Positions 60,553 through 63,999 of a DNA stretch of 64,000 nucleotides are shown here, in pieces. This DNA comes from Solirubrobacter pauli. Its GTDB lineage: Bacteria > Actinomycetota > Thermoleophilia > Solirubrobacterales > Solirubrobacteraceae. The notes beneath the pieces are model-generated. The model searched no databases and was not told where the DNA came from. It worked only from the letters and a program-made list of their open reading frames with translations. The position numbers were made by a program, and so were the translations under genes. How positions within the stretch are numbered: the stretch's first letter is position 1; the number at the start of each line of letters is the position of its first letter. The stretch is taken from positions 3,395,426 to 3,459,425 of the forward strand of contig NZ_RBIL01000001.1 in assembly GCF_003633755.1 (NCBI RefSeq), written 5' to 3'.

Positions 60553-60640
60553 GGCGGATTCGAACCTGCGCGCCGCTCGGACTCGAACCGCGAGGGGACT
60601 TGCAACGTCCGTCACGAGGCCCTACCTTGCAGCACCGCAT
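60553..60640 (-). ncRNA. Degenerate tRNA-like element, minus strand
   Basis: On the minus strand: D-arm-like GCTGCAAGGTAGGGC (60633-60619), anticodon-like arm GGAC/GTCC with loop GTTGCAA (TGC at 60604-60602), and a T-arm-like CGGTTCGAGTCCG (60590-60578); a second T-arm-like GGTTCGAATCC lies further on (60566-60556). The T-stems are imperfect and no good acceptor stem was found, so it is not a normal tRNA. Possible relic or distant cousin of the tRNA-like RNAs in this locus. The interval 60641-60739 shows nothing clear. Confidence 0.4.
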
Positions 60641-60739
60641 GACAAGCAGCCACCGAGATCACGAGCTGTACATCGCCCTCGCCGGGAGGTGCGTCCACGC
60701 CTGAGCGCTTGCTCGGACAGCGACGCAGCACCACAGCGA

Positions 60740-60765
60740 GGGCGGCCCGGCGGGCCGCCCTTTCT
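60740..60765 (+). terminator. Rho-independent terminator
   Basis: A 9-bp perfect stem GGGCGGCCC (60740-60748)/GGGCCGCCC (60752-60760), then TTTCTCGTTCTTT. It ends whatever transcript comes from the left and insulates the RNA array that follows. Confidence 0.8.
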
Positions 60766-60771
60766 CGTTCT

Positions 60772-60777
60772 TTGACA
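60772..60777 (+). promoter_or_regulatory. -35 element (TTGACA) of the RNA array
   Basis: A consensus TTGACA 20 bp before the first tRNA-like RNA. No consensus -10 hexamer was found 16-18 bp further on, so the promoter assignment is tentative. Confidence 0.4.
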
Positions 60778-60797
60778 ACTGCATCCACGCAACACGA

Positions 60798-60871
60798 ACG
60801 CTCGTAGCTCAGTGGAAGAGAGCACCGCCCTGCGACGGCGGAGGCCGCTGGTTCGAATCCAGCCGAGCGTG
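60798..60871 (+). ncRNA. tRNA-like RNA module 1 (anticodon-position GCG)
   Basis: Full cloverleaf: acceptor ACGCTCG/CGAGCGT, D-arm GCTC..GAGC with GG in the loop, anticodon stem CCGCC/GGCGG with loop CTGCGAC, T-arm GCTGG TTCGAAT CCAGC. Read as a tRNA it would be Arg(GCG), an anticodon normally absent from bacteria, which use ACG. It is joined to the Y-RNA-like module at 60872 and lies upstream of the Ro60/Rsr gene, so it is better read as the tRNA-mimic part of a Y RNA (YrlA type). A true tRNA cannot be excluded. Confidence 0.7.
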
Positions 60872-60963
60872 TTCACCGCGGGCCGAAGGCGTCCGGTTAC
60901 CGCCTGTCAAGCGGTGGCCAGCCAGGCCACTTCTCCGGTCGCCACCCACATGACCGCGGTGAG
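60872..60963 (+). ncRNA. Y-RNA-like (Ro-binding) module 1
   Basis: Outer stem TCACCGCGG (60873-60881)/CCGCGGTGA (60954-60962); internal loop with GCCGAAGG (60882-60889), matching the GNCGAAN(0-1)G motif known from bacterial Y RNAs; inner stem GGCG-T-CCGG (60888-60896)/CCGG-T-CGCC (60935-60943) with one T-T mismatch. Inside are two hairpins: ACCGC/GCGGT with the 7-nt loop CTGTCAA (60899-60915), and GGCC/GGCC (60916-60928). The same plan recurs at 61050-61141 with compensating changes. Probably binds the Rsr protein encoded downstream. Confidence 0.75.
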
Positions 60964-60972
60964 GTTCTGCAC

Positions 60973-61046
60973 GTGCCCGTAGCTCAACTGGCCAGAGCGC
61001 CGCCCTGTCGAGGCGGAGGTCGCCGGTTCGATCCCGGTCGGGCGCG
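60973..61046 (+). ncRNA. tRNA-like RNA module 2 (anticodon-position GTC)
   Basis: Cloverleaf: acceptor GTGCCCG/CGGGCGC (one T-G pair), D-arm GCTC..GAGC with GG in the loop, anticodon stem CCGCC/GGCGG with loop CTGTCGA, T-arm GCCGG TTCGATC CCGGT. The anticodon would be GTC (Asp), but its acceptor is unlike standard bacterial tRNA-Asp (which begins with GG). Its anticodon stem is identical to that of module 1. Read as a tRNA mimic paired with the next Y-RNA-like module; an automated scan may call it tRNA-Asp. Confidence 0.7.
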
Positions 61047-61049
61047 CCT

Positions 61050-61141
61050 TGCCGCGGGCCGAAGCGCGCCGGTTACCAGGGGCTCGGTCCGTCCCACCGG
61101 ACGCCGGACGAGCGTCCGGTGCGCACACCACGACCGCGGCA
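61050..61141 (+). ncRNA. Y-RNA-like (Ro-binding) module 2
   Basis: Outer stem TGCCGCGG (61050-61057)/CCGCGGCA (61134-61141); GCCGAAG motif (61058-61064); inner stem GCGCGCCGG (61064-61072)/CCGGTGCGC (61116-61124). Compared with module 1, three inner pairs change on both sides (G-C to C-G, C-G to G-C, G-C to C-G) and an outer A-T becomes G-C. CCGGTTACC and the 3' GACCGCGG are conserved. This is strong comparative evidence for the structure. It ends 32 bp before the Rsr start. Confidence 0.75.
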
Positions 61142-61173: not shown

Positions 61174-62943
61174 ATCAACTACCTGACCCGCATCAACTTC
61201 CGCCGCACGCGCCAGAGCGAGCCGCTGCCCGGCACGGCCCAGGTGCCGAACTCGGCCGGCGGCTTCGCCTGGGCCGTGGACGACTGGACGCGCCTGCGGC
61301 GCTTCCTGATCCTCGGCTCCGAGAGCGGCTCGTACTACGCGGGCGAGCACGCGCTCACCCGTGCGAACGCGGACGCCGTCGCGCGGGCGATCGCGGCCGA
61401 CGGCCGGCGCGCCGTCGGCGAGATCGTGACGATCTCCCGCGCCGGCCGGGCGGCCTCCAACGACCCGGCAATCTTCGCGCTGGCGATGGCGGCCGCGGCC
61501 GCCGACGAGGCGACCCGCACGGCCGCCCTCGACGCGCTCCCGCAGGTCTGCCGCACCGGCACGCACCTATTCACGTTCGCGCGTCACGTCGAGCAGTTCC
61601 GCGGCTGGGGCCGCGCGCTGCGCCGCGGCGTCGGCCGCTGGTACGTCGAGCAGCCGGTCGACCGCGTCGCCTACCAGGCGATCAAGTACCGCCGGCGCGA
61701 CGGCATGAGCCACCGCGACCTGCTCCGCCTCGCCCACCCGGGCGCGAAGACCCGCGCGGGCAACCCGCGCCTGCCCGTCAGCGACGAGCACGCGCGCCTG
61801 TTCGAGTGGATCGTCCGGGGCGGCGAGCCGGCCGCGCGTGGGGCCGGAGAGTCCGCGATGGGCGCGGGCGGCGAGTCCGTGGCGCGTGGCGCGGTGGGCG
61901 CGGGCGGCGAGACCGCGGCGCGTGGCGCGGCCGCTCGCGACGGGCTGCCCGCCGTGATCGGCGCGTTCGAGGCCGCGCAGGGCTCCGGCTCGGCGCGGGA
62001 GACCGCCGCACTCGTGCGGGCGTACGGCCTGCCGCGTGAGGCGGTCCGGCCCGAGCACCTGGACGATCGCGAGGTGTGGGCGGCGCTGCTCGAGCGGATG
62101 CCGATGACCGCGCTGTTGCGCAACCTCGCGACGCTTACGCGCGTGGGGGTCATCACGCCGGGGTCGGTGGGTGCCGATCTGGCGGCCGAGCAGCTCGGCG
62201 ACGTCGAGCGGTTGCGGACCGCGCGGGTGCACCCGATCACGGTGCTGTCCGCGTTGCGCACGTACGCGCGCGGGCGCGGGGTGCGCGGGCAGCACACGTG
62301 GGCGCCGGTGGCGCGGATCGTCGACGCGCTCGACGGAGCGTTCTACGCGGCGTTCGGCAACGTCGAGCCGGCGGGAACGCGGATGCTGCTCGCGTTGGAC
62401 GTGTCCGGGTCGATGACGTGCGGCGAGATCGCGGGCGTGCCGGGGCTGACGCCGCGGGACGCGTCGGCGGCGATGGCGCTCGTGACCGCGGCCACGGAGG
62501 CGCGGCACGAGATCGTCGGGTTCTTCGCCGGCGACGGCGGCTGGAAGTCGGGGCAGCGCGACTGGCACCGCTACGGCGGGATCACGCCGCTCTCGATCAG
62601 CCCGCGCCAGCGTTTGACGGATGCGATCGGCGCCGTGTCCAGCCTGCCGTTCGGCGGGACCGACTGCTCGCTGCCGATGCGGTACGCGCTCGCCGAGGGC
62701 CGTGAGATCGACACGTTCGTGGTCTACACGGACTCGGAGACGTGGCACGGCGAGATCCACCCGGCCCAGGCGCTGCGGGAGTACCGCGAGCGGACCGGGA
62801 TCGCCGCGCGGCTCGTCGTGATCGGCATGGTTGCGAACGGGTTCACGATCGCCGACCCCGAGGACCCGGGGATGCTGGACATCGTCGGGTTCGACGGCGC
62901 GACGCCGGAAGTGGTCTCCGGCTTCGCGCGCGGGGTGGTGTAG
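61174..62943 (+). CDS. rsr: Ro60/Rsr-like TROVE-domain RNA-binding protein (probable AUC start)
   Basis: About 589 residues. The N-terminus matches Deinococcus Rsr as recalled (NYLTRINFRRTRQSEPL, NSAGGFAWAVDDWTRLRRFLILGSESGSYY). TROVE/HEAT-like repeats extend to about residue 375; the C-terminal vWA-like domain has the MIDAS motif LALDVSGSMTCG (D409, S411, S413). The ring binds Y RNAs and 3' ends of misfolded RNA. Start: no ATG, GTG or TTG lies in frame near the conserved N-terminus; ATC 61174 is 7 nt after GGAGGG and gives the right N-terminus. The first normal start, GTG near 61276, would remove about 34 conserved residues. A Gly/Ala/Glu-rich insert (about 215-252) interrupts TROVE. Confidence 0.85.
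   Translation: MNYLTRINFRRTRQSEPLPGTAQVPNSAGGFAWAVDDWTRLRRFLILGSESGSYYAGEHALTRANADAVARAIAADGRRAVGEIVTISRAGRAASNDPAIFALAMAAAAADEATRTAALDALPQVCRTGTHLFTFARHVEQFRGWGRALRRGVGRWYVEQPVDRVAYQAIKYRRRDGMSHRDLLRLAHPGAKTRAGNPRLPVSDEHARLFEWIVRGGEPAARGAGESAMGAGGESVARGAVGAGGETAARGAAARDGLPAVIGAFEAAQGSGSARETAALVRAYGLPREAVRPEHLDDREVWAALLERMPMTALLRNLATLTRVGVITPGSVGADLAAEQLGDVERLRTARVHPITVLSALRTYARGRGVRGQHTWAPVARIVDALDGAFYAAFGNVEPAGTRMLLALDVSGSMTCGEIAGVPGLTPRDASAAMALVTAATEARHEIVGFFAGDGGWKSGQRDWHRYGGITPLSISPRQRLTDAIGAVSSLPFGGTDCSLPMRYALAEGREIDTFVVYTDSETWHGEIHPAQALREYRERTGIAARLVVIGMVANGFTIADPEDPGMLDIVGFDGATPEVVSGFARGVV
61815..61931 (+). repeat. Low-complexity repeats inside rsr
   Basis: Imperfect direct repeats of a GGCGAG...GCGCGTGG unit encode alternating GGES/T and ARGA blocks (residues about 215-252). 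Probably a flexible loop added to the TROVE ring, expanded by slippage. Confidence 0.6.
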
Positions 62944-62976: not shown

Positions 62977-63999
62977 TTAAGCGACCGCTCCGTACTGCTC
63001 GATCGCGTACCCGAGGAGGCCGGCGGCCTCGAGCGCGGGCAGCGGCGCCCGGAACGTGACCTGCACGACGCCCGGCGCGCGACCGATCTCGATCGCGCCC
63101 GTGATCGTGGCGCGGTTCATCACCTCGGGCACGCTCATGTCCAGCAGCTTCGCGGCGCGCGCCAGGCCGTTGTCGGTCGCCGAGTTCAGGTCCGGGCCGG
63201 TGCCGATGACCGAGATCGGCAGCGACTCCTCGATCGCCGTGACGCCCTCGCGCTCGGCCAGCGCCAGCGCGCGGGCGCGCTCGTCGGCGGTCAGCGGACG
63301 CGCCAGGAACGGCAGGTCCTCGAGCACCGGGAACAGCACCGGCCCGTCGATGCCGAGCGCCTTGAGCACCTCGACCTGCAGCGTGACCGTGCCGGCCACG
63401 TCGGCGGTGTGCCCGGCGATCTCGCCGTCGCCCTGCATCGCGTGCATGTCGCCGAGGTAGACGCCGCCGCCCGGCACCTTCACCGGGCAGACGAGGATCG
63501 CGCCGGCGCGCACGGCGTCGATGTCCAGGTGCCCGTCCGTCTTGTGCTGCTGAAGCGCCTGGGCGTCCATCGCGAACCTGTGCGGGGCGCCGACGAGGAA
63601 CGCGCCGAAGTCGCCCGCGTTGTGCGAGTCCGGCATCGGGGCGCTGGGCGTCGTGCCGAGCTGGCCGAGGAACGGCCGCATGCGCGTGACCACGCCGACG
63701 AGGTCGCTCGGCGCGAACGTCAGGATCGGGTTCTGCGCGCTGTTGTCCGGCAGCTGGGCGTAGGCCGCGGCGTCGCCCGCGATCTCGCGTGCGCGGTCCT
63801 CGTGGACCGACAGGCCCAGGCGGCCGTCGAACGCGAGCGTGTAGCCGTTGGTGAACGTGAAGGGCGTCGCGTCCGCCCCGCACGCGACGCAGCGCACCGC
63901 GGTCTCGCCGATGCCCTCGAGCCGCGTCTCGGGCCACTCCGCGCCGCAGCCCGGGCACACCGCCGCGCAGTACGGATCGCCGTTGAAGCGGCCCTCCAT
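62977..63999 (-). CDS. Acetamidase/formamidase-family protein, probably continuing past the window edge
   Basis: At least 340 residues. FmdA_AmdA family segments: SAPMPDSHNAGDFGAFLVG, DGHLDIDAVRAGAILVCPVKVPGGGVYLGDMHAMQGDGEIAGHTADVAG (metal and active-site loop) and SATDNGLARAAKLLDMSVPEVMNRATITGAIEIG. The N-terminal part shows a Cys-rich segment (YCAAVCPGCGAEW; RCVACG) that may bind zinc. It opens with ATG 63999 at the very edge; the family usually has more upstream, so the true start is probably outside. Hydrolyses small amides, releasing ammonia. Confidence 0.82.
   Translation of the reverse strand: MEGRFNGDPYCAAVCPGCGAEWPETRLEGIGETAVRCVACGADATPFTFTNGYTLAFDGRLGLSVHEDRAREIAGDAAAYAQLPDNSAQNPILTFAPSDLVGVVTRMRPFLGQLGTTPSAPMPDSHNAGDFGAFLVGAPHRFAMDAQALQQHKTDGHLDIDAVRAGAILVCPVKVPGGGVYLGDMHAMQGDGEIAGHTADVAGTVTLQVEVLKALGIDGPVLFPVLEDLPFLARPLTADERARALALAEREGVTAIEESLPISVIGTGPDLNSATDNGLARAAKLLDMSVPEVMNRATITGAIEIGRAPGVVQVTFRAPLPALEAAGLLGYAIEQYGAVA

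Follow-up and report, generated by a model that had tools for sequence, protein, structure and literature searches.

A tRNA-Arg(GCG) gene ahead of Y RNAs and the Ro60 gene in Solirubrobacter pauli: a candidate stable-RNA operon

A 64,000-nt stretch of the Solirubrobacter pauli chromosome (contig NZ_RBIL01000001.1, positions 3,395,426 to 3,459,425; hereafter the window) carries two tRNA-like cloverleaves interleaved with two Y RNAs ahead of rsr, the gene for the Ro60/TROVE protein. The parts lie in the order tRNA1, Y RNA 1, tRNA2, Y RNA 2 and rsr, all on the forward strand, and are preceded by a leader, a terminator-like hairpin and a boxA-like site, in that order (Table 1; other loci and genomes are given by L and G numbers). 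Our preferred reading, to which we assign a probability of roughly 0.6, is that the locus would be a stable-RNA operon in which tRNA1 is a genuine tRNA-Arg(GCG) drawn from a tRNA array, and that cleavage at the tRNAs would also free the Y RNAs. This reading builds on direct observations of the order of the parts, the identities of the cloverleaves, Y RNAs and TROVE protein, and tRNA1 itself, which is conserved across the genus and akin to array tRNAs. The parts are individually known and their arrangement is new; among the literature matches listed, a coverage outside which the founding bacterial Y RNA papers fall, no title or abstract opening concerns a tRNA-Y RNA-rsr arrangement.

A first-pass annotation of the window had recognized cloverleaves with GCG and GTC at the anticodon position and identical anticodon stems (CCGCC/GGCGG) in a Y RNA locus, and had explained both as tRNA mimics. 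The cloverleaves and their shared stems are real, and each directly precedes a Y RNA, with the TROVE/Ro60 gene beyond. ARAGORN called them as tRNA-Arg(GCG) and tRNA-Asp(GTC), and they scored 69.6 and 61.3 bits against Rfam model RF00005 (cut-off 29). Because these values fall inside the 51.5-79.3 bit range of the 47 whole-genome RF00005 matches, among which tRNA1 ranks 16th (tied with 15th) and tRNA2 29th, both cloverleaves score like the genome's other tRNAs. The idea of mimicry fares differently for the two. In tRNA1 no mimic is visible, because the invariant 7-nt anticodon loop that we describe below would be superfluous in an RNA that only imitates the acceptor, D and T arms, and its canonical core and tRNA-Arg kin likewise speak against one; for tRNA2 the matter is more open. 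The first-pass annotation had also proposed checking for tRNA-Asp(GTC) and tRNA-Arg(ACG) elsewhere. Both are present: the 7.1-Mb genome otherwise has tRNA-Asp(GTC), tRNA-Arg (ACG, CCG, TCT and CCT) and a tRNA repertoire that serves all 20 amino acids, and since this set is already complete, tRNA1 and tRNA2 are both extra. Neither encodes CCA, which is normal in this genome, as a CCA string lies near the gene end in just 3 of its 47 own tRNA genes.

tRNA1 has the appearance of a functional arginine tRNA whose type is rare but has been retained throughout the genus. It stands beside rsr in 6/6 TROVE-bearing Solirubrobacter genomes, namely that of the window and five with TROVE among six same-genus genomes searched; these hold five distinct tRNA1-region sequences, G001 and G006 being alike here. 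The 7-nt anticodon loop CUGCGAC is invariant in all five, as are A20, C35, G36 and A/G73, which we take to be arginine identity elements. Stem changes in the tRNA1 of L077 are compensated. Core positions are canonical, with G15 and C48 forming a pair found in 32 of the 47 own tRNAs and the other positions judged by eye. The gene is identical to its S. phytolaccae copy at 74/74 positions, and the flanks of the two loci agree at 155/170 columns in the leader, 82/100 in Y RNA 1 and 754/921 over the first 900 nt of rsr. CGC is the main arginine codon of rsr (36/65).

The closest kin of tRNA1 outside the genus, by identity, is the Arg(ACG) of L048 (0.88), which is the last of a six-tRNA array and stands directly before a Y RNA and rsr. 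In the tree, the Solirubrobacter Arg(GCG) genes group (support 88/84) with this gene and with the Arg(ACG) of L097, the sole tRNA within its 3-kb stretch. The best tRNA1 match in G002, the only genus member searched that lacks TROVE, is an Arg(GCG) within an array of 32 tRNAs and a tmRNA; it is 0.77 identical and has the same loop. We read tRNA1 as the product of an A34-to-G34 change in an array-borne tRNA-Arg, a direction that we infer, and on this sequence evidence the gene most probably encodes a true tRNA of array origin rather than a mimic. The GCG anticodon, held by the first-pass annotation to be normally absent from bacteria, is instead rare: it is named among the rare isoacceptors of mycobacteria in PMC9569102 and also occurs in the G002 array. 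Such an array of 32 tRNA genes and a tmRNA lies at L119:7107-12871, in a Solirubrobacter genome without a TROVE match.

tRNA2, with G34, U35, C36 and G73, departs from conserved features. Its A15 with C48 is one of two non-standard cases among the 47 own tRNAs, the other possibly being a misparse. Relative to the genome's own tRNA-Asp it has A38 rather than C38 and U2-G71 rather than G2-C71, and its acceptor differs from that of this tRNA, as had been noted at first pass. The GUC form was seen in the window only, that is, in one of the six TROVE-bearing Solirubrobacter genomes. Within its genome tRNA2 shows identities of 0.78 with Arg(CCG), 0.77 with Asp and 0.75 with tRNA1, values too close to decide its origin; its closest genes by identity are tRNA-Arg. 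The shared anticodon stem had prompted the idea that tRNA2 arose by duplication of the tRNA1-Y RNA 1 unit. We do not claim this: the tree does not resolve it, and over the whole length tRNA-Arg(CCG/ACG) genes of other genomes are nearer (0.80-0.81) than tRNA1 (0.75). Because of A15 with C48, A38 and the irregular anticodon arm of its S. taibaiensis counterpart, tRNA2 may not decode.

Bacterial Y RNA/YrlA with Rsr was reportedly described by Chen in 2014. The RNAs that follow the two cloverleaves are bacterial Y RNAs, with paired ends that carry conserved elements and a position beside rsr. In a set of 20 Y RNAs, drawn from Solirubrobacter and from loci of other actinobacteria, the ends share GGGCCG and CANGACCG, and the basal helix is paired in 93.3% of 180 cells, with double changes at 6/9 pairs. 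Covariation in this helix reached 0.499, compared with 0.189 in shuffles (0/500 as high) and no more than 0.205 for slid arms; the Y RNAs and their arms were picked by eye, a choice that favours the helix. Not among the 20 are a middle Y RNA of L049, an incomplete Y RNA of L054 and the Y RNAs of L050, L051, L052 and L053. Single-sequence folds were modestly better than shuffles (z -2.01 for Y RNA 1 and -1.38 for Y RNA 2), and tRNA2 and Y RNA 2 folded together were no better than shuffles (z -0.15). The Y RNA finder is loose, 106 loci giving 128 matches on the strand as supplied and 74 on the opposite one; only matches between a tRNA and rsr, confirmed by eye, were counted. Two scans for a T arm followed by a Y box were excluded from support. 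The first matched 5/396 genomes of the phylum sample; with the window's own genome set aside, just one of the remaining four (L105) had an ARAGORN tRNA at the site, with no Y RNA after it by eye; the same scan of viral contigs matched 10, with a tRNA at the site in three (L110, L112 and L116).

Y RNA 1 begins 0 nt after tRNA1 and Y RNA 2 begins 3 nt after tRNA2. Gaps of 0-2 nt are found in the window (tRNA1), L046 (where the finder ends overlap by 2), L047, L073, L048 and L087. With each tRNA 3' end so close to the Y RNA that follows, the cuts that RNase Z and RNase P make in maturing the tRNAs would release the Y RNAs as well. We envisage that the stretch from tRNA1 through rsr is copied as a single long transcript, which would be cut at the tRNAs by RNase P on the 5' side and RNase Z on the 3' side. 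By such tRNA punctuation, the cuts would set the 5' end of each Y RNA as well as a rough 3' end for Y RNA 1. Freed tRNA1, once charged with arginine, would decode both CGC and CGU with no need for A34-to-inosine editing, and might be of benefit when the host tRNA-Arg is damaged. The released Y RNAs would bind Ro60, and tRNA2, as a lineage-specific extra with a loosened core, may act mainly as a processing signal. The suggestion at first pass that the cloverleaves recruit tRNA-processing enzymes to the Y RNA transcript could be right.

The rsr product carries both the TROVE and the Ro60 vWA domain (PF05731, 126.1 bits; PF25045, 198.4 bits; E-values 1e-58 for vWA_Ro60 and 2.9e-36 for TROVE), and its nearest relatives in genome contigs come from two Solirubrobacter species (82% and 74%). 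By eye, the start codon at 61174-61176 is ATC in the window and in S. taibaiensis (L047), and ATG in L046, L072 and L077. TROVE is rare, occurring in 8/61 relatives, 8/399 genomes of the class sample and 11/396 of the phylum sample, our own genome counted. Five loci (L048, L049, L052, L054 and L076) have a tRNA cluster upstream of rsr, and L087 has a single tRNA-His there. An rsr relative is present in 340/50,697 phage records, and in five of the seven phage stretches fetched ARAGORN found tRNAs near it (LinStu 2, Sparky 4, Boopy 19, Enygma 7, prophiGD43A-5 1). Taken with the negative cases given next, these counts in relatives, phages and viral contigs make the link between rsr and tRNA clusters common among the actinobacterial relatives examined, though not general.

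Several observations weigh against our reading of the locus. No tRNA lies upstream of rsr in L050, L051 or L053, and ARAGORN found none in the Cashline and Phabba stretches (2/7 phages). Among 80 viral rsr loci, kept from 346, any tRNA was present in the fetched stretch in 21 and three or more in 7. The gap between tRNA and Y RNA varies, reaching about two dozen bases in L077 and 34 in L049 and L088, two contigs of equal length. The genome's own Arg(ACG) already reads CGC. In S. taibaiensis, the anticodon arm of the cloverleaf before Y RNA 2, called GCG, is irregular, so this cloverleaf is not retained for decoding. Finally, the absence of tRNA-like module motifs from the Solirubrobacter Y RNAs could mean that the cloverleaf replaces this module in the mature RNA.

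This last point defines the main alternative, in which the cloverleaf stays on the Y RNA, takes the place of the internal tRNA-like module of YrlA and docks tRNA enzymes or PNPase. Such a retained chimera is plausible because the module motifs are missing: GTTCRA or TAGCTCA occurs in 0/9 Solirubrobacter Y RNAs, so by this motif test alone they lack the internal tRNA-like module of the YrlA subtype, whereas GTTCRA is found in at least one Y RNA at 6/7 scored loci outside the genus (L048, L049, L053, L054, L076 and L087). Moreover, the Y RNA 1 helix begins right after G73 of tRNA1, and the two helices could stack. The test is crude, however. Inspection by eye shows T- or D-arm-like remnants in L072 and L077 Y RNAs, and the sole L052 row lacks the GTTCRA motif; the rows for L049 at 458, L052 and L053 rest on doubtful 3' arms, the L046 row at 14, a false pair inside the leader and tRNA, was dropped by hand, and L050 and L051 gave no row. 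The gap in L077 is not fixed, and L047 Y RNA 3 and L077 Y RNA 2 stand without a tRNA directly in front, which suggests that the cloverleaf need not stay attached. In addition, the anticodon loop is invariant, yet PMC8394870 describes YrlA as similar to tRNA in its D, T and acceptor arms. Given the invariant loop and the Y RNAs without a tRNA in front, we consider the retained chimera improbable.

A related and slightly less probable proposal is that in Solirubrobacter the tRNA-like module has been transferred from inside the Y RNA to a position outside it, giving a two-part tRNA-mimic ribonucleoprotein with Ro60 in which a complete cloverleaf fused to the Y RNA 5' end and an internal tRNA-Asp-like GUC hairpin would together sense or buffer tRNA damage. 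CCUGUCA is present in 5/9 Solirubrobacter Y RNAs, one per distinct genome sequence. When these five were folded, chosen because they bear this string, the GUC hairpin appeared in the predicted fold of only three (window, L046 and L047). The CUGUCAA-loop hairpin of Y RNA 1 is similar to the anticodon arm found in the L048 array tRNA-Asp.

It is also unlikely, by a similar measure or slightly more so, that the tRNA genes are ordinary neighbours, remnants of a decayed array that are functionally unconnected with the Y RNAs. Some relatives do have tRNA clusters upstream of rsr, and tRNA2 is loosened and was seen in one species, but tRNA1 is kept beside a Y RNA and rsr in 6/6 genomes, without other array tRNAs and behind a conserved leader. 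Least probable of all is a decoy role, in which the cloverleaves and the GUC hairpin of Y RNA 1 absorb or inhibit anticodon nucleases: CCUGUCA is indeed kept in one Y RNA of each of the five distinct sequences, but we know of no nuclease acting at this locus, decoding would equally keep the tRNA1 loop, and the hairpin is predicted in just the three Y RNAs named above. Array tRNAs are discussed as anti-defence in PMC12803027, which lends the decoy some support.

Set against known systems, the locus, on our preferred reading, shares features with three. Like the tRNA array units of actinobacteria, phages and plasmids, which PMC5966550 and PMC12803027 describe as dense tRNAs outside the housekeeping set that probably moved horizontally, it holds extra tRNAs, and tRNA1 is akin to a tRNA-Arg of such units; unlike them, it is limited to one or two tRNAs, and these alternate with Y RNAs. 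Neither paper mentions TROVE, Ro60 or Y RNA in its main text. As in bacterial Y RNA/YrlA with Rsr (PMC8394870 and PMC7790460), the Y RNAs have paired ends with the invariant elements and lie beside a Ro60 gene, but in place of the YrlA motifs, missing from 9/9, complete cloverleaves stand in front. In tRNA-rich cluster C1 mycobacteriophages, according to PMC10264068, the anticodon loop differs from that of the host tRNA, much as G34 here differs from A34 of the genome's own tRNA-Arg; in contrast to those altered phage tRNAs, this locus is chromosomal, G34 lies within the anticodon itself, and it is known here without a link to a nuclease.

The leader is conserved as well. GACTCGAACC of the nearer T-arm-like repeat is kept in 5/5 aligned Solirubrobacter leaders. 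A consensus scan returned no promoter, and the promoter-like pair in Table 1 was picked out by eye. The terminator scan found one hairpin, compared with 0.3 expected (sd 0.7). The short leader open reading frame (ORF) ends where a longer ORF in the ORF list ends. Because CGCCCTCG within it is complementary to the terminator 5' arm, the leader ORF and terminator suggest that the operon may be attenuated. The boxA-like site is the genome's only exact match to GTTCTTTGANAACTG, and in 2/5 leaders it differs by one base (TTCCTTGACAAC instead). The 16S leader holds a similar string, GTCTTTGAAAACTC, about 225 bases before 16S, by a looser pattern and with the likeness judged by eye; four exact boxA patterns had no match there. 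Downstream of rsr, an acetamidase/formamidase-family gene lies on the opposite strand (62977-63999).

Table 1. Features of the tRNA-Y RNA-rsr locus, in window coordinates.
Feature	Position	Strand	Basis or remark
Two T-arm-like direct repeats, GGATTCGAACC (60556-60566) and GGACTCGAACC (60579-60589)	60556-60589	+	Upstream of the -35-like site
Promoter-like TTGCAA-N17-TACCTT	60600-60628	+	By eye; varied but kept in 5/5 leaders
Short leader ORF, 21 codons and stop, MTSSHRDHELYIALAGRCVHA	60639-60704	+	Translated by eye; conserved across the 5 leaders aligned
Intrinsic terminator-like hairpin between leader and tRNA1	60738-60762	+	Scan; kept in 5/5 leaders
boxA-like site, GTTCTTTGACAACTG	60767-60781	+	Alignment of leaders; genome string search
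tRNA1, tRNA-Arg(GCG)	60798-60871	+	ARAGORN; Rfam RF00005; genus conservation
Y RNA 1	60872-60963	+	Fold; structural finder; covarying basal helix over 20 Y RNAs
Y RNA 1 hairpin, 7-nt loop CUGUCAA, tRNA-Asp-anticodon-arm-like	60899-60915	+	Predicted fold
tRNA2, tRNA-Asp(GUC)-like	60973-61046	+	ARAGORN (called to 61048); Rfam RF00005
Y RNA 2	61050-61141	+	Fold; structural finder; covariation
rsr, Ro60/TROVE protein	61174-62943	+	Domain matches; apparent ATC start after AGGAGG

Together, these findings suggest that tRNA supply and RNA quality control may come from one transcript. If our reading is true, tRNA supply would be tied to Ro60/Y RNA quality control within that transcript, and the tRNAs would offer a simple route for making Y RNA ends. 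The locus would also be a natural case of a conserved G34 tRNA-Arg beside a normal A34 copy. If the cloverleaf instead stays attached, the locus would reveal how Y RNAs acquire tRNA mimicry or have it replaced.
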